Shown piece by piece: positions 53,558-64,000 of a stretch of DNA of 64,000 nt. The position numbers were made by a program, and so were the translations under genes. Position 1 is the first letter of the stretch. Each line of letters begins with the position of its first letter. Below the pieces are notes generated by a model. The model had not been told where the DNA came from and searched no databases. It worked only from the letters and a program-made list of their open reading frames with translations. Source of the stretch: Burkholderiales bacterium (GTDB lineage Bacteria; Pseudomonadota; Gammaproteobacteria; Burkholderiales; Burkholderiaceae_C); the NCBI GenBank assembly GCA_016192425.1, contig JACPUE010000058.1:1-64000 (forward strand), written 5' to 3'.

Positions 53558-54180
53558 ATGAAAACCGCAGGTAATGCCGATCATCGCGAGCCGTGGAACA
53601 AGGGAAAGATCGTCGGGCAAAAGGCACCTTTTAAGCTGAAGGACATTTGGGCGCTGCATGTCCGCCTCCAGATTGAAGGTCGGGTGCGTGAGCTGCACTG
53701 TTCAACCTAGGCATCGACAGCAAGCTGCGCGCATGCGACCTTGTGGCCCTCAAGGTCCGGGACGTGTGCCATGGAGATCAGATGGCCACACGTGTCATCG
53801 TCATGCAGAGCAAGACTCAGCGTCCGGTGCAATTCGAAATCACACAGACCACCCGAGACGCCCTGCAGACGTGGATCAAACAGGCCGGGCTGAAGTCAGA
53901 ACAATTCCTGTTTCCAAGCAGGCTCCACGATTCACCTCATCTTGAAACCCGACAGTACGCCAGAATTCTTGGGCATTGGGTCGACGACCTTGGACTGGAC
54001 CGCGCGGACTACGGCACACACTCCATGCGAAGGACCAAGGCAACGCTGATTTACCGACGAACAAAGAATCTGCGCGCAGTGCAATTGCTCCTTGGGCACT
54101 CAAAGCTGGAATCAACGGTCAGGTACCTTGGCATCGAGGTTGATGATGCCCTGGAGATTTCCGAGCAAACGGAAATTTAA
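53558..54180 (+). pseudogene. Tyrosine recombinase with a one-base frameshift
   Basis: Frame 1 begins at ATG 53558 with MKTAGNADHREPWNKGKIVG and runs through IWALHVRLQIEGRVREL. It then reaches TAG at 53708. Inserting one G after 53695 restores RELALFNLGIDSKLRACD and joins it to the downstream frame. That frame carries GTHSMRRTKATLIYRR and LLLGHSKLESTVRYLG (catalytic R, H and Y) to 54180. The intact family is about 207 aa, matching this length. A one-base deletion has therefore inactivated it. Confidence 0.82.
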
Positions 54181-54251: not shown

Positions 54252-54384
54252 GTTCGAGTCTCAACTCCGAGCGGCTGCAATCAGCCTGAAGCTGACCAAG
54301 CAAACTAGAGTACCTGTGTGATCGACAACCGCCTGAAGCGGAGATCCTGTGGGGATCGCTACAGGGCCGATGCCCAGATGCAAT

Positions 54385-54633
54385 TCAGTCGGAGACAGAA
54401 GCGGGAGGTTCGTCGGACCTAACATGCTCCATCAGGTCTTCGACGCGGCAAGCGAAGTACTCACAAAGCTTGTCGATCGTCTCGGTTCCAGTTCCATAAC
54501 CCTTCTGGTTGAGGATCTTGGACAGCGTCATCCTGTTCAAACCGGTTGCTGCAGCTATCTCGCTGACGGTGATACGACGCGCATCAGCGAACTGTTTTTT
54601 CTCAATCATCTCGCCTAGCTTGAACCTGATCAT
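54385..54633 (-). CDS. Xre-family regulator of the integrase module
   Basis: 82 aa, MIRFKLGEMIEKKQFADARR, then a helix-turn-helix VSEIAAATGLNRMTLSKILN and a Cro/CI-like tail DKLCEYFACRVEDLMEH. It is divergent from the excisionase and integrase genes. The gap carries a 30-bp inverted repeat that is probably its operator. Confidence 0.75.
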   Translation of the reverse strand: MIRFKLGEMIEKKQFADARRITVSEIAAATGLNRMTLSKILNQKGYGTGTETIDKLCEYFACRVEDLMEHVRSDEPPASVSD

Positions 54634-54708
54634 GGGAGTAAAAAATGGCGAATGATAAAAAAAAGCATCAAATGACTTGAAAATTGTGTTTGCTTGTGTA
54701 TCATCGGG

Positions 54709-54738
54709 ATCAAGTGATAAATATTTTTATCGCTTGAT
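54709..54738. promoter_or_regulatory. Operator-like 30-bp inverted repeat of the integrase module
   Basis: ATCAAGTGATAAA and TTTATCGCTTGAT flank a 4-bp centre; the arms match at 12 of 13 positions. A related smaller dyad TCAA-N5-TTGA lies at 54668-54680. Both sit in the AT-rich gap between the Xre regulator and the excisionase-like gene. Confidence 0.65.
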
Positions 54739-54761
54739 GTAAAGATTCTACAGGAGCAACC

Positions 54762-55010
54762 ATGAATGAGCAGACCTACCTCACTACAGATGAATTGTCG
54801 TCAAGGATCAAGTATGACGTTCGGACAATCCGAGAACGTCTCAAAGACAGCGTGCTGATGGAGGGGGTGCACTATGTGCGACCGTTCGGTGGCAGAAAGA
54901 TCTTGTTTGTGTGGGAGACCATTGAACGTGACATGAAGGTCGCCTCGACCCTGTTGCCAGTTGGCATGAATGCAATCCCGATGGCCAATGGAGCAGTTCT
55001 CCATGGCTAA
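54762..55010 (+). CDS. Excisionase-like DNA-binding protein
   Basis: 82 aa: YLTTDELSSRIKYDVRTIRE, then RLKDSVLMEGVHYVRPFGGR. This is the winged-helix pattern of excisionases and AlpA-type regulators. ATG at 54762 follows CAGGAGCAACC. It overlaps the integrase start by 8 bp, so the two are co-translated. Confidence 0.7.
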   Translation: MNEQTYLTTDELSSRIKYDVRTIRERLKDSVLMEGVHYVRPFGGRKILFVWETIERDMKVASTLLPVGMNAIPMANGAVLHG

Positions 55011-56460
55011 GGTCACAGTCAGAAATGAAACCGGCAAGTTGGTGATGGACTTCACCTATCGCAATGTTCGTTGCCGTGAGCAGACAGCATTGCCTGACAC
55101 GCTGCAAAACCGAAAGCGGGTGGAGGTCGTTCTGGAAAAGATCAAGAAGGCGCTGAGGAATGGCACCTTCAAGTACCGCGATTACTTTCCTGAGAGCGCA
55201 CTAGCATCGCGCTTCGATCCAGCGGCTGCAGTCGACGTGGGCAAGTCGATGCAGTCACCTGTCAATAGCTCTTCCCCACATTTTCAAGACTTCGCAAGAC
55301 AGTGGTTTAAAGAGCACGAGATCGAATGGCGACGCAGCCATATCCGATCCCTGCGCTCCACCTTGGACGGTCGCCTGATCCCTCACTTCGGACAAAAGGT
55401 GGTCAGCAGCATCACCAAATCCGACATCCTTGCCTATCGCGCCACACTCGCCAAAGTAAAAGGTCGCGGAGACAAGGAAGGACTCTCACCCAAACGGATC
55501 AACGAGATCATTGGCACGCTTTGCCAGATCATTGACGAAGCCGCCGACCGATTCGAGTTTACGACGCCCACAACCAACATCAAACGACTGCGTGTGCGCA
55601 AGGTCGATGTGGATCCGTTCAGCCTGCAGGATGTACAGAGCATCCTGGCGACCGTCCGTGCGGACTATCGCAACTATTTCACCGTGCGCTTTTTCACCGG
55701 CATGCGCACTGGAGAAGTCCATGGCCTCAAATGGCGCTACGTCGATTTCGAGCACCGCTTGATTCGGGTCCGGGAAACCGTCGTCCTTGGAGAGGATGAA
55801 TACACCAAGACCGACGGCAGCCAACGCGACATCCAGATGAGCCAGCCGGTCGTCGAGGCCCTCGCCAAGCAGTACGAGGTGACGGGACAACTGTCCGACT
55901 ACGTGTTCTGCAACCTGATGGGCGCGCCGTTGGATAACAAGAACTTCACGGACCGCATCTGGTATCCATTGCTGCGCCATTTGGGCATGACTGAACGCAG
56001 GCCTTACCAGATGCGCCACACCGCGGCCACCTTGTGGCTGGCTTCCGGTGAGGCTCCTGAATGGATCGCACGCCAGCTCGGCCACACCTCAACAGAAATG
56101 CTGTTCAGGGTCTACAGCCGGTATGTGCCCAACCTCACGCGCCAGGACGGCTCGGCCATGGAGCGACTGCTGGCCAGTCGGCTTGCCACTGGCCAGGTGT
56201 TGCGCATGGACAGCGCAAATCTGCAGCAAGTGGGCAGCAGCAACCTGTTTGCAGAAACGGCAGCCGGTGACTTGCCGCCCATGCCCGTGCCCAAGCCACG
56301 AGGCCTTGCGCACTTGGGTATTGACGGAGCGCGTGCGCGCTGGTCAAGCACATCACAAGACATCACCCTGCCTGAAGGACGGGCGGGAGAGGACCCACAG
56401 CCCCCGCCCTGGGTTGAGATGCACGCTCGCATGACGTCGCCCCACCAAATGCACGTCTGA
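55003..56460 (+). CDS. Tyrosine integrase
   Basis: 485 aa. The N-terminal arm-binding region (VTVRNETGKLVMDFTYRN) is followed by a SAM-like domain (FARQWFKEHEIEWRRSHIRS). The catalytic domain has R in FFTGMRTGEVHGLKW, H-x-x-R in YQMRHTAATLWLASGE, the second H in QLGHTSTEMLF and the nucleophile Y in RVYSRYV. All catalytic residues are present. It is probably the integrase of the element carrying the following genes. ATG 55003 is chosen at the excisionase overlap. Confidence 0.88.
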   Translation: MAKVTVRNETGKLVMDFTYRNVRCREQTALPDTLQNRKRVEVVLEKIKKALRNGTFKYRDYFPESALASRFDPAAAVDVGKSMQSPVNSSSPHFQDFARQWFKEHEIEWRRSHIRSLRSTLDGRLIPHFGQKVVSSITKSDILAYRATLAKVKGRGDKEGLSPKRINEIIGTLCQIIDEAADRFEFTTPTTNIKRLRVRKVDVDPFSLQDVQSILATVRADYRNYFTVRFFTGMRTGEVHGLKWRYVDFEHRLIRVRETVVLGEDEYTKTDGSQRDIQMSQPVVEALAKQYEVTGQLSDYVFCNLMGAPLDNKNFTDRIWYPLLRHLGMTERRPYQMRHTAATLWLASGEAPEWIARQLGHTSTEMLFRVYSRYVPNLTRQDGSAMERLLASRLATGQVLRMDSANLQQVGSSNLFAETAAGDLPPMPVPKPRGLAHLGIDGARARWSSTSQDITLPEGRAGEDPQPPPWVEMHARMTSPHQMHV

Positions 56461-56582
56461 GCTTGCGCTAAGCCACCGTCGACACACCCATAGCCGCTGC
56501 TCCAGGCAGCGGTCTGGGCGGAGCCTTGCCGACGCTGGCCCGGCTACCTCATTCACCTTCAGTCTTCAAACGCCAGGAAACC

Positions 56583-57212
56583 ATGAACCCCATCTCTGTG
56601 CGCCGATATTCCCGAGCCCCATGTTTCGAGAGCTGTGACGTGCCACCGGCACCAGCGGCTCCACAGAACAGGTCGTTGACCTCCAGACTTGAGCAAATTC
56701 ATGGAGTCGCAAACCTGCTCGATCACCTGCCAGCCTGCGCCAACAAGAGTCTTCGTAGCTTTGTCGCAGAAGTGTTCGACAAGGCACTTCTTGCGGCGTA
56801 CTCCATACCGGCGAGGGGCGCCTGGGCGCCCGAGTGTTGCCAATCTGCAGAACATTCCCTGCTCGACTGGAGCCTTCAGATGTCCAAACGCGCCCGACGG
56901 TATCCGGCCCTGCACGCATGGGAGCGGGATGTGGCAGTCGCAGCCGCTTTGGTCGCTCCGTGTGGACTGGCGGGCTACCTGCATGACCATCCCGACCGAG
57001 ACCCTGTGCTCAGCCTGAACAGCGAGGAACGCGAAGAAATTGTCGCGCGGCGCCTTGTGATCCTCGACGCCCCCTTGCGCCGCTTGCGATCACGTGATGC
57101 CGAATGCGGCAGCACGTTGGGCGCAGTGCTCGACGTCAGTGGAGACGAAGAGCTCGACCGCCAGCAAGTCGCGCGCATCACCGCCGCCATCGGCTTCATG
57201 GCAATCCTCTGA
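56583..57212 (+). CDS. Unknown mobile-element protein (209 aa)
   Basis: No recognised family. Its helical segment SLRSFVAEVFDKALLAAYSI is loosely like ALVPFVTTVFALDELVSAYL in the gene at 57632-58228, so the two may be distant paralogs. It also has WERDVAVAAALVAPCGLAGY. ATG 56583 follows CAGGAAACC. It begins a rightward run of five genes behind the integrase. Confidence 0.55.
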   Translation: MNPISVRRYSRAPCFESCDVPPAPAAPQNRSLTSRLEQIHGVANLLDHLPACANKSLRSFVAEVFDKALLAAYSIPARGAWAPECCQSAEHSLLDWSLQMSKRARRYPALHAWERDVAVAAALVAPCGLAGYLHDHPDRDPVLSLNSEEREEIVARRLVILDAPLRRLRSRDAECGSTLGAVLDVSGDEELDRQQVARITAAIGFMAIL

Positions 57213-57252
57213 CTATGCGCCCCACACGCTGAACAACTAGACCCCTACATCC

Positions 57253-57639
57253 ATGAAACCCACATCCAATCCAATATCCAAGAACGCCTCTTCCGCTGGC
57301 TCCACCCCTACCCACTTTGTGCAGGAGCACAAGGGCCTGTGTATCTTGGCGTTACCAGCAAGCTTTCGCAAAGCGGTCCCCGCAGAGCGTTGGAATGAGA
57401 TCCATCGTGAACTGCATGCCCAAGTGCTGGAACTCATTGATCGACTGCCCGCCGCAGTGCACTTCGTCGAGCTGCCCCTGTGCGTAGCCCAGATCACCGG
57501 CGACATAGACCCGGCAGAAATCGGTCAGCGGTTGACTCAAGAGGACTTCATCCTCGAGCCCCGCGGGCGGACGGGAGAAACCAGCAGCCGTGCGACCACC
57601 CGCAGGGCAGCCTCCAAGAAAGGAGCCTCCCGTGCGTAA
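57253..57639 (+). CDS. Unknown mobile-element protein (128 aa)
   Basis: A soluble protein with HFVQEHKGLCILALPASFRK and a basic, serine- and alanine-rich tail (RATTRRAASKKGASRA) typical of a flexible nucleic-acid-binding end. No family recognised. Its stop overlaps the next gene's GTG start by 8 bp. Confidence 0.5.
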   Translation: MKPTSNPISKNASSAGSTPTHFVQEHKGLCILALPASFRKAVPAERWNEIHRELHAQVLELIDRLPAAVHFVELPLCVAQITGDIDPAEIGQRLTQEDFILEPRGRTGETSSRATTRRAASKKGASRA

Positions 57640-58228
57640 TCACCGAGCCCGACAAGGAACGCAGGACATGTTCGGAGCCCCCCAGAGTCAGCGTGCTATG
57701 CAGGTCCAGGCTGAACAACGTGCCCAGTTGCTCGGGCAACTACCGCTGCTTTCTAACCAGGCGCTGGTGCCATTCGTCACAACGGTTTTTGCATTGGATG
57801 AACTGGTCTCCGCATATCTCCTGCCTTTGCGTTCTGCGCCCCGAGAACTGGATGAAGGAGACCCGACAGCACTTTCGCAGTGTTTAGCGGCCATGGGGCG
57901 TGCCCGCCGTTGCAGAACCTTGGTCCTCAAATCCAGCTGGGAGCCCGTTGCCGTGGCGCTGTTGGTCAACCCCTGTGGCTACTACCTCTGCCTGCGCGAG
58001 CTCATGTTTGGACGTCACTACGTATCGACGCCTGACATGTACCAGCGGATCAGCCGTGTCAGAGCAGAGGTGCTGACCAAGCCCCTGCAGGCACTGTGTG
58101 AAGCCGACCCCCAGGTCGGACGTTATCTCGCCTGGATCTTGGGGTTTGGTTCCTATAAGGGGCTGGATGTCCGGCGGGCGGTCGACATGCAGAGGGCGGT
58201 GTATTGCGAGACGCTATGGATGAACTGA
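57632..58228 (+). CDS. Unknown mobile-element protein (198 aa)
   Basis: The GTG at 57632 is preferred because AAAGGAGCCTCCC lies directly upstream; ATG 57668 is an alternative. The protein is helical, with LLSNQALVPFVTTVFALDEL and LVLKSSWEPVAVALLVNPCG. It is loosely similar to the 209-aa protein at 56583. No known domain. Confidence 0.55.
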   Translation: MRNHRARQGTQDMFGAPQSQRAMQVQAEQRAQLLGQLPLLSNQALVPFVTTVFALDELVSAYLLPLRSAPRELDEGDPTALSQCLAAMGRARRCRTLVLKSSWEPVAVALLVNPCGYYLCLRELMFGRHYVSTPDMYQRISRVRAEVLTKPLQALCEADPQVGRYLAWILGFGSYKGLDVRRAVDMQRAVYCETLWMN

Positions 58229-58259
58229 CTCACTGGCATGGCCACGAAAGGAATCAACG

Positions 58260-58514
58260 ATGCACTGGGTCATTCACCTGACGCTCCTGGCGTTGAGCGC
58301 CATCAACGCGTATCTCATCTTCCGCAGGGATTGGGATCCCATGGACGCCTGGCTCTTTGTGGCGGGTGCTGCGGTGGCGCTACTCCTCGCGTTACTCCTG
58401 CATCTGCTCTTGAAGGTCAGGCCCGAGGAGCGCATCGCGCTCCTGCGCGAAGTGGCCAAGACGGCTAAAGCCGATCTGGTCGCCTTCCTGAAACTGCTTC
58501 GCTTCTGGCGTTGA
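58260..58514 (+). CDS. Small two-TM membrane protein
   Basis: 84 aa with two membrane segments, about residues 3-20 and 30-52, then a charged cytoplasmic helix (RPEERIALLREVAKTAKADL). ATG 58260 is preceded by AAAGGAATCAACG. It lies 72 bp before an AAA+/M41 protease gene that has no membrane segments of its own, so it could act as that protein's anchor (inference). Confidence 0.6.
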   Translation: MHWVIHLTLLALSAINAYLIFRRDWDPMDAWLFVAGAAVALLLALLLHLLLKVRPEERIALLREVAKTAKADLVAFLKLLRFWR

Positions 58515-58586
58515 TAGCGATCTCCATTCCATGGCGGTCGCGCGAGATGTGACCGCTGCAGAACCCCAACAGAAATTTCTACCACC

Positions 58587-60524
58587 ATGAAAACAACGAA
58601 CAACCAATTGCGCGCGCACATCAGTGAACGCAGCGCTCAGCTACGACACATCGCCGCAGAACTCAAGACCGAACTCTTTGGGATTGATGACATCATCGAT
58701 CGCGTGATCGACACAATACGGGCGTGGTACGTCCTGCCCGACGTCATCAACCGGCCAGTCATCGTGAACCTATGGGGGCTCACCGGTACGGGCAAGACCC
58801 AACTCATTCGCAGCCTGTCAAAGAAGCTCGGGTTCTATGACCGCCTGATCGAAGTTCAGATGGACGGCTATTCCAATGGAGGAGGGGTGTCGATCGGCTC
58901 CATGTTGTCAGACTCGGCGATCGCCGAGGGCACTCCCGGAATCCTCGTTCTCGATGAGTTCCAGCGGTTCAGGACCATTGACCGCGATGGGCGCGAGCGC
59001 AAGGTCGAGCACTACATGGATGTGTGGGGCTTGCTTTCCGACGGGAAATTGCCTCCCAACATCAGCTTCCTTGGGGATATGGAGCGCAGATTGGCCGAGG
59101 CTGCATATCGTGACGAACACAAGCGGGTTGGCATGAAGTCGGATGCTGACGAGGAGGATGTGGTCGTTGGGCTGTTCGCGCGAACGCCCCGTAATGATCG
59201 TTCGAAGTTCACTCTGCCGCCGTATCAGGCCCAGGAATTTAAAGCGACGTTGAAGCTCAAGGAGTCCATCATGGAAATCATGACCTGGTCTCCGCAGGAT
59301 CTCCACAGTCGCTTGGTTGCCTTCATGCAAGACCCCCATGCGTGGGAGACGGATTACTCGAAACTGCTGATTTTTGTTTGTGGCAATCTCGATGAGATGT
59401 ATGCAGATGCCGCCAGTCGTGTGGAAGACTGCGACACAGATGCTGATGTGTTCCATGCCATGACCCGCAAGCTTTCGCTCATTGATGTGAAGCGGGCGCT
59501 GAGTGAGCGCTTCAAGCCCGAGCAAATTGCCCGGCTTGGCAACAACCACGTTGTCTATCCCAGTCTGAACCGCTCGACCTACCAAAAGCTCATCGCGGTG
59601 GCGGTGCACGGGTACTTGCAGGAAATCGAAGCATCCAGTGGTCTGCGCTTTGAAGTGACCGATGCGGTCAGGGAGCAGATCTACGCCAATTCGGTGTTTC
59701 CCACCCAGGGCACCCGTCCGGTTTTCTCTTCCGTGCACAGTCTGATGAGTGCACCTCTGGTGGACTTCACACTCTGGGCGCTGGAGCAGGGCGCCACGCC
59801 CGGCCAGCTGCTGACCATCGATGTGGACTCGGACGCCGGGCTTCTGATCGCGCGCTGGGCCCACAGGACACATACCGTACCCGTAGCGTTTGAGATCAGC
59901 AGGCTTCGCCAGCGACCCGATCCAGACATGCGCGCAATCCTGGCGGTGCACGAAGCGGGGCATGGATTGATCTACACCTTGCTGTTCAAGCAGGCACCGC
60001 TGGAGATCCGCATCAACATGGCGACCTTCTCCGGGGGCTACAACAGTTTTAATGCGCTCAAAGTCAAAACCCGCGGCAATCTGCTCGATGCAGTGTGTGT
60101 TGCACTCGCGGGTCGGGCTGCCGAGGAGATGGTGTTTGGCAAGGAGTCCCTGAGCTCAGGTAGTGAGAGCGATCTCAAGCTGGCCACACAGCAAATGGCA
60201 GCCTTCATTCGGCACGCCGCGTTTGGGGAGCGCATCAGCCATGTGGATGTCAGCACGGAGGCCGGGGAAAACATCAACACGGATGTGGCCAGCACCAACG
60301 CTGAAATTGAGGCCGGTCTGCAGACCCAGTACGAGCGTGCGCAGACCCTGCTCGCTGGAAACCGAGCGATCTATCTCCGGATGGTCAATGAGCTCATCAA
60401 CGAAGGTCAGCTGGCGCCGCAGAAGATTCGAGATTGGCTGGGACTGTCGCAGTCGGAGGTGCCCAAGGATGCGTCGGAGCCATTTGAGTCGAAGCTGATG
60501 GAGTTCGAGCGCAGGGCTGCGTAA
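58587..60524 (+). CDS. AAA+ ATPase fused to an M41 (FtsH-like) zinc metallopeptidase
   Basis: 645 aa. The N-terminal AAA+ module has Walker A GLTGTGKT (residues 64-71) and Walker B ILVLDEF (about 119-125). The C-terminal peptidase has the zinc motif HEAGH at 455-459 and a third ligand aspartate in SGSESDLKLATQQM (D529), as in FtsH. Unlike FtsH there are no N-terminal membrane spans, and the two domains are separated by about 250 residues. This is probably an ATP-dependent protease acting on an unknown substrate. It is carried on a mobile element. Confidence 0.78.
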   Translation: MKTTNNQLRAHISERSAQLRHIAAELKTELFGIDDIIDRVIDTIRAWYVLPDVINRPVIVNLWGLTGTGKTQLIRSLSKKLGFYDRLIEVQMDGYSNGGGVSIGSMLSDSAIAEGTPGILVLDEFQRFRTIDRDGRERKVEHYMDVWGLLSDGKLPPNISFLGDMERRLAEAAYRDEHKRVGMKSDADEEDVVVGLFARTPRNDRSKFTLPPYQAQEFKATLKLKESIMEIMTWSPQDLHSRLVAFMQDPHAWETDYSKLLIFVCGNLDEMYADAASRVEDCDTDADVFHAMTRKLSLIDVKRALSERFKPEQIARLGNNHVVYPSLNRSTYQKLIAVAVHGYLQEIEASSGLRFEVTDAVREQIYANSVFPTQGTRPVFSSVHSLMSAPLVDFTLWALEQGATPGQLLTIDVDSDAGLLIARWAHRTHTVPVAFEISRLRQRPDPDMRAILAVHEAGHGLIYTLLFKQAPLEIRINMATFSGGYNSFNALKVKTRGNLLDAVCVALAGRAAEEMVFGKESLSSGSESDLKLATQQMAAFIRHAAFGERISHVDVSTEAGENINTDVASTNAEIEAGLQTQYERAQTLLAGNRAIYLRMVNELINEGQLAPQKIRDWLGLSQSEVPKDASEPFESKLMEFERRAA

Positions 60525-60536
60525 GAGGGTGTTGAA

Positions 60537-61763
60537 TCACTCGCCCACCTCCAACATATCGTTCCAGGAAGTCGTGTATGCCGGTGACCTGCGCTCTTGC
60601 CGCATGGCCCAGCTTGCACGCTCTCCCTTAGCCTCGATCCCAGCGCTGGCGAGCTTCAGCGTCCCTCGCCCATAGCGCTGGTTGAGTTCATCGAGCGCCT
60701 CCATCAGCCGTTCACGGGCGCAGTCTTGTGCTTCCAGGGGTTCCAGATCGAGCTCACCCTGCCGCAGCTTTGCACTGTGCAAGTCCAGCAGCATGACTCC
60801 TGCCTTGATGAAGGCATAGCCGGATCGGTAGATGCGGCGCAGCCCAGCCAATGCCGCATGGACAATGGACACCGTGTCACTGGTGGCCCGGAGCAGCGGA
60901 ACAGTGATGGACCTGGCGTACTGCGGCCCCTTGCGATACGGGCTGGTGTGAATGAACACCAGCACGTGGGCCGTGTGGCTGGCCTGCCTTCGCAGCTTCT
61001 GCGCTGCCATGCTGGCAAACGTGCTGACGGCCTGTTCCAGCGCAGGGAGGTCACTGATGGGTTGCCCAAACGACCTGGTGCAGGCGATCTCCTTCTTGGG
61101 TGGTGGTTGATCGTCCAGTCCAATGCAGGGCATGCCTTGCAGCTCCCGCACCGTGCGCTCCAGCACCACCGACCAGCGCCTGCGCACAGTGGCCGGATCA
61201 AGGCGTGCCAAATCCAGGACGGTCTCAATGCCTGCGTCCTTGAGCTGGGCCGCGATCTTGCGCCCGACACCCCAAACCTCTCCCACTTCGGTCGCTTCCA
61301 GCACCGCATCCAGTTCCTCTCGCGGCAACTGCGCGAGGTTGCAAACCTGGGCCAGTGCTGCAGGGTAGGAGCCAGGTTTGCGTTCAGCCGTCTTGGCGAC
61401 ATGGTTGGCCAGCTTGGCCAGGGTCTTGGTCGGGGCAATACCCACGCCGCAGGGAATACCTACCCACTGCAGCACGCGGGCACGGATGGCATGGGCTCGT
61501 TCGGTCATGTCGCCCGGAATGCCACCGAGGTCCACAAAGCTCTCATCAATCGAATACACCTCATGGCGGTGACCCAGCGCAGCCACCAGGCTGGCCATGC
61601 GGTCAGACATATCGCCATAGAGCGCAAAGTTGGCCGAGAGGGCCACAAGACCGGCCTCCTTCTCCAGGTGCCGGATCTCATGCCAGGGGTGTCCCATTCG
61701 CACCCCCAGTTCCTTGGCCTCGTTCGATCGGGCAATGGCGCAGCCGTCGTTGTTTCTGAATGA
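60537..61763 (-). pseudogene. umuC: UmuC-type Y-family polymerase, 5'-truncated
   Basis: The frame contains NNDGCAIARSNEAKELGVRM, YSIDESFVDLGGI, GIAPTKTLAKLANHVAK and TRSFGQPISDL. Upstream of NNDGC the sequence is unrelated (LGSFR) and reaches a TAA, so about 31 N-terminal residues are missing. These include the first metal-binding aspartate and steric gate of family DxxxFYxSCE motifs. The first ATG (61703) would give a 388-aa protein lacking them. Probably inactive. The stop lies 13 bp from the M41 protease stop on the other strand. Confidence 0.75.
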
Positions 61764-61834
61764 CCCTAACTGTTAGTAGGCTATATACGCCTATGCTCTA
61801 TCGTCAATTTGACGACTAACAATTTTTGCAGGAA
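61764..61834. other. Junction between truncated umuC and merR
   Basis: AT-rich for this genome; contains a 13-bp palindrome CGTCAATTTGACG (61802-61814) and the small palindrome CTAACTGTTAG (61766-61776). It marks the point where the mercury module meets the truncated umuC and may hold an element end. Confidence 0.4.
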
Positions 61835-62230
61835 TTAAGTGCCAGCCAAAGTGTCAATGATGGGGCATGGTCCAGATTCGACTCCGTTTTCGCAGCGCTT
61901 AGACAAGTCAGTAAGGGTCTTCTTCATGCGGCGCAGGTCAGCAATGCGGGCATCAATCTCCTTGATCTTGTGCTCAGCCAGCTCCTTGGTTTCGCAACAG
62001 TTTTTTGCTTCTTCAAAGCTAAGAAGACTGCTGGTCTCATCCAACGTGAATCCTAACGTTTGTGCGCGCTTGATGAATTTGACTCGCCGGACAACCGCTT
62101 CGCCATACTTGCGCTGCCCGCCCTGCGGGAGTAGGGGCTCAGCAATCAGACCAATGCGCTGGTAATAGCGGATCGTGTCGATCTTTACGCCTGCCGCGTT
62201 GGCAGCTCGGCCAATTGTCATGTCGTTCAT
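61835..62230 (-). CDS. merR: MerR-family metal-responsive regulator
   Basis: 131 aa. N-terminal winged helix IGRAANAAGVKIDTIRYYQR and RQRKYGEAVVRRVKFIKRAQ-type region. A long dimerisation helix leads to cysteines in AKNCCETKEL, SKRCENG and GPCPIID, positions used by MerR for Hg(II). It is divergent from merT across a 20-bp-spacer promoter typical of this family. Hg(II) is the most likely inducer, but related metals cannot be excluded. Confidence 0.82.
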   Translation of the reverse strand: MNDMTIGRAANAAGVKIDTIRYYQRIGLIAEPLLPQGGQRKYGEAVVRRVKFIKRAQTLGFTLDETSSLLSFEEAKNCCETKELAEHKIKEIDARIADLRRMKKTLTDLSKRCENGVESGPCPIIDTLAGT

Positions 62231-62248
62231 GGCATTTCCAAATAGTGC

Positions 62249-62280
62249 TTGACTCTGGACTCTAGTCCAGACTTTACATT
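62249..62280 (+). promoter_or_regulatory. MerR-type promoter/operator of merTP
   Basis: -35 TTGACT (62249-62254) and -10 TACATT (62275-62280) are separated by 20 bp, the lengthened spacer that MerR proteins correct. An 18-bp dyad TCTGGACT-CT-AGTCCAGA (62254-62271) fills the spacer. It differs from the classical GTAC-containing mer operator. Confidence 0.85.
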
Positions 62281-62314
62281 AGCCTATCCCTTGTTGGGTT
62301 GGAAGGATTTGTGC

Positions 62315-62656
62315 ATGGACATTAAAGTCAAATCTTCAATGGTCGCAGCTGCGCTGGCAGCCGTTGGCGCTTCTGCGTGTTGCGCTGGACCTCTCATCCT
62401 TTTGTCGCTCGGCATTGGCGGGGCCTGGATTGGCAACCTGACCGCGCTCGAGCCCTACCGACCCATCTTCGTGGCCTTGGTCGCGGTGTTCATGGTCATG
62501 GCTTGGCGACGGCTTTACCGCGAGCCGACGTGCGCTCCCGGAGATGTCTGCGCCATCCCTGAGGTGGCCGCGCGGCAACGAACCATCTTTTGGGTCGTGT
62601 TGGCAATGGTCTGCCTCATGGCGGCATCACCCTGGCTTCTTCCCTTCATCTTTTAA
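62315..62656 (+). CDS. merT: MerT-like mercuric ion transporter
   Basis: 113 aa, three membrane segments. The cysteine pair is in ASACCAGPLILLSLGIGG (TM1) and a second pair in PTCAPGDVCAIP (loop), both required for Hg(II) uptake in MerT. ATG 62315 follows GGAAGGATTTGTGC. merP follows after 10 bp. Confidence 0.85.
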   Translation: MDIKVKSSMVAAALAAVGASACCAGPLILLSLGIGGAWIGNLTALEPYRPIFVALVAVFMVMAWRRLYREPTCAPGDVCAIPEVAARQRTIFWVVLAMVCLMAASPWLLPFIF

Positions 62657-62666
62657 GGACACCACC

Positions 62667-62948
62667 ATGCGTTCATATCTTTTGGCCCTCTCGATTTTCC
62701 TTTCAATCAACGCTTTCGCTGGAACGCCAAAGACAGTCACCCTCGACGTAAAGAACATGACTTGTGAGCTTTGTCCCGTGACGGTCAAGAAGGCTTTGGA
62801 GAAGACGCCTGGCGTCGCAAAAGCCCAAATCGACTTCGCGAAGAAGACCGCAACCGTCACCTTTGACCCCGATGTCGCCACCGTGGCGGCTTTGGCCCAG
62901 GCCACAACCAATGCTGGATACCCCTCCACTGCGCGGGAGGTCAAGTGA
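62667..62948 (+). CDS. merP: MerP-like periplasmic mercury-binding protein
   Basis: 93 aa. Signal peptide MRSYLLALSIFLSINAFA, then an HMA fold with the metal site NMTCELCPVTVKKAL and a C-terminal AGYPST. It would pass Hg(II) to MerT. Its TGA overlaps the GTG of the next gene (GTGA at 62945-62948). Confidence 0.88.
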   Translation: MRSYLLALSIFLSINAFAGTPKTVTLDVKNMTCELCPVTVKKALEKTPGVAKAQIDFAKKTATVTFDPDVATVAALAQATTNAGYPSTAREVK

Positions 62949-63166
62949 GCAACCCGATTCAAACCGCATCGACCTTGACATGTCCCGAATGCGGCCATGC
63001 CATCAAGCTTGAGATGCCGACGGACGCCTGTCAGTTCTTTTACGAATGCGAAGAATGCAAGACCGTGATGCGCCCACTGCCGGGAGACTGCTGTGTTTTT
63101 TGCAGTTATGGAGATGTGAAGTGCCCGCCCATCCAAGCGCAATCGTCCTGCTGCGCTACTAGATAG
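62945..63166 (+). CDS. GDCCVxC-type cysteine-rich small protein (mer copy)
   Basis: 73 aa, GTG start overlapping merP. Cysteines in LTCPECGHA, CEECKTV, the signature GDCCVFCSYG, and SSCCATR. It is similar along its length to the protein at 46638-46850. Position in the merTP operon suggests Hg(II) or thiol-metal handling. No merA follows; a umuC gene on the other strand ends 1 bp away. Confidence 0.82.
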   Translation: MSNPIQTASTLTCPECGHAIKLEMPTDACQFFYECEECKTVMRPLPGDCCVFCSYGDVKCPPIQAQSSCCATR

Positions 63167-63167
63167 T

Positions 63168-64000
63168 CTAGGCTCGCGCCACAGGCATGTCACTAAATTT
63201 GGTGGTGTATTGAGGCGTAAGTCTTTCTTGCCTCATCGACCAGTCGCGGTGCGCACCCACGCCGACAGCGCTTCCTACATGGATGGCACCGCGTCCAAAC
63301 CGATCATTGATGGCATCCATTGCGGCCATCAATCTTCCGCGATCCCGTGTTTCAGGCGCACCGAAGTCAAACTCGCCTTGTGAGACGTTGTCCGGCATCA
63401 AGTCCAGCAGCATGACTCCTGCCTTGGAGAGTTTGAATCCCGGTTTGTAAATCTGGGTGACTCCCATTACAGCGGCCTGAACCAGATGCCTCGTGTCCGC
63501 CGTCGGACGGCGCAGCGGTATGACTATGCTTTTGGAGAAGTGTGGCCCCTGTCGGAAGGGGGACGTGTGGGCGAACACCAGTATCTGACCAGCCAAGCCG
63601 GATTGACGCCGCAGCTTGGCTGCCGCACGGCTGGTGAACTCGCTCACCGCCTCGATGAGAGGCTTAACTTCAGTGACGGGCTGACCAAATGAGCGGGTGC
63701 AAGCAATCTGTTTTTTAGGGCTTGGCGCGTCATCCAAGCTGATGCATGCCTCCCCCTGCAATTCTCTGACTGTGCGCTCCAATACAACGCTCCAACGATC
63801 ACGAACCATGGATGGACTCAATCTTGCGAGGTCGAGAACCGAAGTCACCCCTGCGTCACGCAGTTGCTGTCCGATGCGCCGACCGACCCCCCACACTTCG
63901 CCCACATCGGTCGCAGCCAATATGGCATCCACATCAGATCCAGGGAGGTTTAACAAGTTGCAGACCGTAGCCAAACTCTCAGGGTAACTGCCAGGCTTTC
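63168..64000 (-). CDS. umuC: UmuC-type Y-family polymerase, partial (runs off the window)
   Basis: The C-terminal part of a second UmuC: VGEVWGVGRRIGQQLRDAGV, TRSFGQPVTEVKPL, VMLLDLMPDNVSQGEFDF. The frame is still open at 64000 with KPGSYPESLATVCNL, so the N-terminal half lies outside. It is a paralog of, not identical to, the truncated copy at 60537-61763. UmuC is the lesion-bypass DNA polymerase of the SOS response; mobile elements often carry it. Confidence 0.85.
   Translation of the reverse strand, partial: KPGSYPESLATVCNLLNLPGSDVDAILAATDVGEVWGVGRRIGQQLRDAGVTSVLDLARLSPSMVRDRWSVVLERTVRELQGEACISLDDAPSPKKQIACTRSFGQPVTEVKPLIEAVSEFTSRAAAKLRRQSGLAGQILVFAHTSPFRQGPHFSKSIVIPLRRPTADTRHLVQAAVMGVTQIYKPGFKLSKAGVMLLDLMPDNVSQGEFDFGAPETRDRGRLMAAMDAINDRFGRGAIHVGSAVGVGAHRDWSMRQERLTPQYTTKFSDMPVARA

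Follow-up and report, generated by a model that had tools for sequence, protein, structure and literature searches.

An integrating element of Burkholderiales carries a predicted soluble protease that joins an HSP100-type AAA+ module to an M41 peptidase

The 64,000-nucleotide stretch of Burkholderiales DNA analyzed here (contig JACPUE010000058.1; hereafter, the window) contains a 6.2-kb integrating element (54282..60527, +), whose last gene (58587..60524, +) encodes a protein of 645 amino acids (aa) with an AAA+ ATPase module followed by a zinc peptidase. The gene is supported by its open reading frame (ORF), Pfam and NCBIfam models, alignments, and predicted structure. The initial annotation of this locus had placed the protein, its motifs GLTGTGKT and HEAGH, and D529 correctly. 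The Walker A motif GLTGTGKT occupies residues 64 to 71 (58776..58799, +) and the Walker B pair DE residues 123 and 124 (58953..58958, +). The sensor-2 arginine R377 (59715..59717, +) lies in a GTRP motif that aligns to the GxRP of Clp proteins. The zinc-binding HEAGH spans residues 455 to 459 (59949..59963, +) in an alignment that includes FtsH, and the third zinc ligand D529 (60171..60173, +) also aligns to FtsH. We compared the window protease with 42 homologues of 25 to 94% identity. In this 43-sequence alignment, the ATPase positions G64, G67, G69, K70, T71, D123, E124, N267 (sensor-1), R316 (in a Clp-like arginine-finger stretch), and R377 do not vary, and neither do the peptidase positions H455, E456, H459, and D529. 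Given this invariance of the ATPase residues and zinc ligands, we expect an active enzyme. The Peptidase_M41 family (PF01434) matches residues 447 to 614 above its cut-off (E 6e-16), so the peptidase is, as first proposed, of the M41 type found in FtsH, with HExxH and a distal Asp. The proposed lack of a membrane anchor was likewise borne out: no 19-residue window reaches a mean hydropathy of 1.6 (maximum 1.31), and the N-terminal transmembrane (TM) segments that FtsH has in the same chain are missing.

The initial annotation had also taken the AAA+ module to be FtsH-like; here, our results lead elsewhere. When residues 1 to 435 alone were searched against chains of the PDB, ClpE (E 6e-8), ClpB (1e-7), Hsp104 (3e-5), and ClpC (5e-4) were found, and no FtsH chain appeared up to E 1. 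With the profile of the 43 sequences, the best 60 of 72 matches divided along the chain: bacterial FtsH matches peaked within residues 433 to 634, and Clp/Hsp104 matches within residues 12 to 102 or 300 to 430. The FtsH AAA domain emerged as a second stretch of 7 to 12 bits in the four alignments showing it, against about 98 to 100 bits for the M41 part. Among the NCBIfam models, ClpA matched residues 13 to 97 (through its second AAA domain), ClpB residues 300 to 415, and FtsH residues 447 to 612; the FtsH model TIGR01241 scored 54.9 against a cut-off of 600, and the classic-clade AAA+ of FtsH is not seen. The AlphaFold model of the protease (predicted local distance difference test, pLDDT, 84; predicted template modeling score, pTM, 0.75) gives the same division. 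Residues 1 to 433 match Skd3, ClpB, ClpC, and ClpA with Z values of 20 to 22.6 over 274 to 309 residues at a root-mean-square deviation (rmsd) of 3.2 to 4.5 Å, Skd3 being the top match, level with other Clp entries. Residues 443 to 626 match AFG3L2 (Z 20.6, 182 aligned, rmsd 3.5 Å), and FtsH-type chains align over both halves at 6.5 to 7.3 Å only.

Several observations weigh against assigning the AAA half to the HSP100 proteins. FtsH 3kds aligns along the whole model (Z 21.4, 386 residues), yet with an rmsd of 7.1, and Foldseek places FtsH and the second nucleotide-binding domain (NBD2) of ClpB side by side at the top. Pfam AAA families remain below their cut-offs on this half, which is therefore diverged; its residues 185 to 203 are predicted poorly (pLDDT <50), and the assignment of the pore loop is uncertain. 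On the other hand, the NBD2-type AAA+ with the GxRP sensor 2 of HSP100/Clp proteins, including the invariant R377, is present. Since sequence, profile, curated-model, and structural comparisons put the AAA half with HSP100, and a good match to FtsH is limited to residues ~433 to 634, the protease is, as far as sequence and predicted structure can tell, a soluble HSP100 NBD2-type unfoldase fused to an M41 peptidase.

In textbook bacterial AAA+ proteases, Clp motors serve the ClpP barrel, and the M41 peptidase is served by the FtsH motor in the membrane. Among HSP100/Clp ATPases, ClpA/C/X engage ClpP by means of an IGF/IGL-type loop, and ClpB works with DnaK. Lon and HslUV are soluble bacterial ATP-dependent proteases, Lon having motor and peptidase in one chain; the peptidase is Ser-Lys in Lon and Thr in HslV. 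The window protease shares with FtsH, m-AAA, and i-AAA the HEAGH plus distal Asp peptidase placed C-terminal to AAA+ in one chain, but it has no TM segments and its AAA+ is of the HSP100 NBD2 type rather than the classic clade. With ClpA/ClpC/ClpE, the NBD2 of ClpB, and single-ring Skd3/CLPB it shares the AAA+ fold, Walker A/B, F-x-PE..R, and GxRP; unlike them, it has a single AAA+ module with neither N-domain nor NBD1, and its own peptidase in place of ClpP docking. Its zinc M41 peptidase sets it apart from Lon and HslUV. Thus, the protein is not an FtsH in its AAA type or membrane anchoring, and only its peptidase qualifies. In jumbo phages, MoxR-vWA-metallopeptidase pairs have been described in which an AAA+ protein and a metallopeptidase likewise go together on phage genomes (PMC7824862). 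These are separate proteins with a MoxR-type AAA+, and the main text of that article has no occurrence of M41 or FtsH. Full-text literature searches, and PMC7824862, PMC9020784, and PMC8297831 among the papers, gave no description of an HSP100-M41 fusion (subscription papers and preprints lie outside this scope, so that one may exist elsewhere), in agreement with the initial annotation, which knew of no earlier description of the gene pair.

Members of the protease family were found in three settings: chromosomes of Comamonadaceae/Sphaerotilaceae, where hrpA/argA are often near; phage-like contigs; and the 6.2-kb element, which has the gene as cargo. Judging from sequence and predicted structure, the protease is likely an ATP-dependent enzyme of the cytosol, complete in one chain, and its carriers are phages, an integrating element, and chromosomes. 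By analogy with known machines, the HSP100/Clp NBD2 module (residues ~1 to 433) would form a ring whose pore loops grip the substrate and thread it through the pore. The M41 ring fused beneath (residues ~443 to 630) would, like that of FtsH, make a chamber in which the incoming chain is cut. With M41 fused in this way, docking to ClpP would be superfluous, and the protease would need neither ClpP nor a membrane anchor. In the element, the two-TM protein and the three other cargo proteins described below may choose substrates or place the protease at the membrane. Sequence and predicted structure support the fusion and its conserved catalytic residues, together with the three settings and the element. 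A carrier could gain from the protease through help to a virus, defence, counter-defence, or survival of stress, and we give none of these an even chance. If the fusion is functional, M41 chambers can be fed by a motor different from that of FtsH, and the protein offers an easy soluble system for M41 biochemistry. It would also have to be explained why the gene is retained in all three settings.

Carriage by an integrating element, which had been suspected from the start, is well founded. By blastn, a block of 93 to 94% DNA identity is common to the window, L032, and L033 (Acidovorax facilis), with bounds at 54282-60511 against L032 and 54285-60527 against L033, and L034 (Acidovorax delafieldii 2AN) has a diverged copy. 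As befits an integrating element, the same block, with an integrase towards one end, sits between different flanks. Its gene order is regulator, 82-aa helper, integrase, three proteins that we call A228, B128, and C199, two-TM protein, and protease. No repeat of at least 10 bases is common to both ends in the window, L032, or L033. The integrase (54988..56460, +) is a tyrosine recombinase with an arm-binding domain (PF12167, PF00589, PF22022; phrog_1).

Directly upstream of the protease, as already reported in the initial annotation, lies a gene for an 84-aa two-TM protein (58260..58514, +), supported by its ORF, hydropathy, and the element copies. The segments lie near residues 3 to 21 and 32 to 50, with 19-residue windows averaging 1.82 (from residue 3) and 2.67 (from residue 32); in L034 the first segment is weak (1.25). 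The protein is 85 to 94% identical in the other three element copies. Against L034, the gene has a ratio of nonsynonymous to synonymous substitution rates (dN/dS) of 0.22; two closer pairs give ratios >1, but with very few synonymous changes to judge by. It was proposed that the two genes form a split FtsH-like machine, with the 84-aa protein as membrane anchor for an anchorless FtsH and the pair as a membrane quality-control protease. In each of the four element copies, the window included, the two genes lie side by side, and the protease has no TM segment of its own; both points would suit such a machine. Nevertheless, we reject it as very improbable, because the AAA half is of the HSP100 type and the loci and genomes searched gave the gene pair only in the four element copies. 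The proposal was to fall if the protease stood alone in most genomes, and so it does: among loci that include 700 bp or more of upstream DNA, the two-TM gene is missing beside the protease in 80 of 83 bacterial and all 17 viral ones. A small two-TM ORF within 700 bp upstream occurs in just 3 of 100 loci tested; two of these are the element's own gene, and the third, in L124, has no blastp match to the 84-aa protein. The L034 copy is not in this count, as its first segment stays below the threshold. Among 198 genomes searched, the two-TM gene was found in the window's own genome alone, and a close-relative scan of viral contigs returned no relative. The fetched loci held none besides the element copies, giving two matches at E 0.55 only. 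With the two-TM gene found only in the element copies, a general two-component machine of protease and two-TM protein does not fit its distribution. A role as membrane tether inside this element is possible. Instead of a split FtsH, the fusion appears to be an ATP-driven protease of a kind that has attracted little notice.

In the window's family, 30 of 299 genomes (its own included) match the protease profile at E<=1e-30, one with a fragment only and one with the gene split over two frames. Phylum-wide, the protease is present in 2 of 398 genomes, both belonging to that family and one being the window's own. A scan of named genomes gave 144 encoding stretches, and the best 80 were kept. Where genus or order is named, they belong to Burkholderiales, and the tree labels place most of them in Comamonadaceae and Sphaerotilaceae. 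The E. coli genomes yielded no match to the protease in a DNA search. Among plasmids, 11 records matched by tblastn, with best stretches within residues 371 to 644 and none covering 80% of the query.

For comparison of neighborhoods, 86 bacterial loci were used, comprising the best 80 and six from other genomes, with four duplicates left out. Longest-ORF gene calling was poor in these GC-rich loci and was replaced by a codon-usage score trained on protease genes; as these calls miss small genes, neighbors were recounted with tblastn. The genes that we take from their sequences to be hrpA and argA were found in 46 and 45 of the 86 loci, respectively. Of the 83 loci with >700 bp upstream, 57 have a gene for a small, conserved basic protein of ~80 aa, which nearly always adjoins or overlaps the protease frame. 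All three neighbors are present in 24 of the 86 loci and none of them in 10. The small basic neighbor is a candidate adaptor of the chromosomal form. Its copy in L021 (9534-9782, -), before a chromosomal fusion protease, shows the motif MSAKK.SRA..QGEIKKLRRMKQP...GAQRRAD and matches no Pfam family.

The window's genome has three M41 matches: an 806-aa frame, which gives a stronger M41 match and is taken to be the FtsH of this genome; a chromosomal member of the fusion family; and the window copy. The chromosomal member is 56% identical to the query and sits at the hrpA/argA place. Such a second copy would be expected if the protease were an ordinary extra housekeeping enzyme and a chance cargo with no special role for the element. 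However, dN/dS values of 0.14 against L033 and 0.10 against L034 show purifying selection on the gene in the element, and the element copies form their own clade; we therefore consider this explanation unlikely.

A single-protein scan of uncultivated viral contigs confirmed nothing, and a profile scan found 27 protease loci. Eighteen of them gave frames for comparison, among which L119 is cut at the contig end. The proteases of L112 and L113 are 70% identical to the query. The L112 contig carries major head and portal proteins, and the L113 contig a structural protein and a tail-fibre protein. In L116, a 379-kb contig, the protease directly follows a clamp-loader gene (phrog_168, E 2e-61); pieces of a helicase and a polymerase lie upstream, and weak tail/structural matches downstream. 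In L122, a portal gene lies ~5 kb upstream of the protease. Hallmark phage genes were looked for in a minority of the viral contigs. In two further viral contigs the protease has chaperone-like neighbors: in L127 a ClpA/ClpC-like ATPase (phrog_4871, E 1e-253) follows it after ~3 kb, and in L129 what are presumably DnaK and DnaJ genes follow it, again after ~3 kb.

We also built a quick maximum-likelihood tree of 102 rows, which is unrooted. The four element copies group together (SH-aLRT 100), and their nearest group (100) is formed by L112, L113, and L035, the last being bacterial; the large chromosomal clade stands separate. The deep branches are viral, and the long ones among them are flagged as unreliable. 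This tree, together with the head and portal genes of L112 and the surroundings of the L116 copy, would agree with a phage-derived gene that helps the virus in virion assembly or host-protein removal and has been captured by elements and chromosomes, where it is kept as an accessory protease. Because the tree is unrooted and its long viral branches are flagged, it does not fix the direction of transfer. Furthermore, the check for hallmark genes covered a minority of the viral contigs, and 50,697 annotated phage records gave no match past the M41 domain, to which two pieces corresponded. This negative speaks against phages as the home of the gene, at least as far as sequenced isolates go, and the phage setting consists of uncultivated contigs alone; it is thus a point against the phage part of the reading that we prefer, too. 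A phage-derived helper gene is therefore conceivable but on the whole not expected.

A search with the integrase of the element hit 21 of the 299 genomes, its own included, at E<=1e-90, and we examined the flanks of 21 integrase-relative loci in stretches of 10.5 to 16 kb. An 82-aa protein overlaps the integrase start in the window (54762..55010, +), and a relative precedes the integrase in all 21 loci; it matches no Pfam family and is probably an excision or DNA-binding helper. A small Cro/C1-type regulator (HTH_26, E 1.2e-13) lies divergent from the integrase (54385..54633, -). A small divergent ORF stands before the integrase module in 15 of the 21 loci, its type varying. The left-end motif of the element (up to 2 mismatches) has scattered matches in 4 of the 21 (L155, L160, L167, and L169). 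Neither the protease nor the two-TM gene was found in these 21 loci (blastp, E<=1e-3), where the integrase module accompanies different cargo.

Strong matches to defence systems lie within ~8 kb in 4 of the 21 loci: SPARTA (L149), SspC/SspD (L150), Mza (L171), and a DrmD/BrxH-like helicase (L159). In L156 there is a partial N-terminal match only (HEC-06, residues 22 to 87), and in L032 a type I methyltransferase follows the element. Scanned proteins of the remaining 16 loci gave no defence match in the families listed, and L154 and L160 had none scanned. The 20 proteins scanned first were picked by eye for size or sequence. A test of enrichment then used 78 proteins from 17 of 20 loci (L154, L157, and L160 have no protein of 200 to 1500 aa, and L149 was outside the set). 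As control we took 78 proteins out of 781 encoded around the chromosomal protease; they are mostly core genome and thus make a weak contrast. Test-set matches refer to the first 25 of 65 families and were assigned to loci through separate protein scans; the control set matched only RtcR and mad3 at E<=1e-20. The helper-integrase module may mark a possible family of small integrating elements near defence systems, and its link to defence is suggestive, not proof. Two loci have long open frames near the module, of 1961 aa in L157 (2094-7979, +) and 1805 aa in L161 (3139-8556, +). A tyrosine-recombinase domain lies deep inside them (residues ~1436-1597 and ~1288-1428, respectively), and they have no PADLOC match.

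These neighborhoods bear on whether the protease could be anti-phage cargo, i.e., whether an integrase-element family with defence genes carries a protease that, under the guidance of the pseudo-HD (see below) and two-TM proteins, breaks down proteins of the phage or the host when infection occurs. The four loci with defence genes, the partial match in L156, the methyltransferase beside L032, and the near-empty control set all point that way. However, the defence genes may be part of neighboring elements, the proteins scanned in the 16 other loci gave no such match among the families listed, and the control loci are chromosomal protease neighborhoods rather than islands. The frequent hrpA/argA place on chromosomes suggests housekeeping instead. 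The best PADLOC match of the protease itself reaches 23.8 bits over residues 6 to 101 only, with no full-length match to any defence model, and we rejected it as a known defence effector since these matches are weak and limited to the AAA half. Altogether, a role as anti-phage cargo appears rather doubtful. More broadly, and only tentatively, we envisage a further class of AAA+ protease, with an HSP100 motor and an M41 chamber in one soluble chain. Such a class may have diversified in phages and become fixed in Comamonadaceae/Sphaerotilaceae chromosomes with the small basic adaptor. It might also have been picked up by a defence-carrying element family, where the two-TM and pseudo-HD proteins would retarget the protease.

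Three cargo genes, all with uncertain starts, lie between the integrase and the two-TM gene: A228 (56526..57212, +; dN/dS 0.25 against L034), B128 (57253..57639, +; dN/dS 0.29 against L034), and C199 (57632..58228, +). A228 and B128 match no Pfam family; A228 is a relative of C199, a search with which finds it at E 2.9e-8. The structure model of C199 (pLDDT 80) is helical, with a predicted HD-like fold. In VIA, its best match is YhaM (Z 10.2, 151 aligned, rmsd 4.5), followed by matches of Z 5 to 7 that are mostly HD-domain or phosphodiesterase entries, fold names that we partly presume. Foldseek gave no match at E<=0.001, and an HD pair is not conserved across the aligned family. As the model is HD-like by VIA alone while the HD pair is not conserved, C199 may, with low certainty, be a pseudo-HD protein. 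No relative of C199 or A228 was found in plasmids at E<=0.001, and a close-relative scan of viral contigs found none of C199. Relatives of A228/C199 stand beside the same integrase module elsewhere, in L148, L149, L150, L153, and L156. In L166, a true HD-domain protein (PF01966) follows soon after the same kind of integrase; profile comparison found no relation between it and A228/C199 (probability 0.2%).

Just left of the element, at 53743-54180, lies a C-terminal fragment of another tyrosine recombinase (PF00589), which suggests repeated insertion at this site. To the right, the region 60537-63974 has a umuC gene (388 aa) that lacks ~49 first residues relative to the model, and a second frame that we take to be umuC-like (63168-63974). 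Between the two are small genes that are presumably MerR-like and Mer-transport-like. DNA similar to this umuC region also adjoins the element copy of L034.

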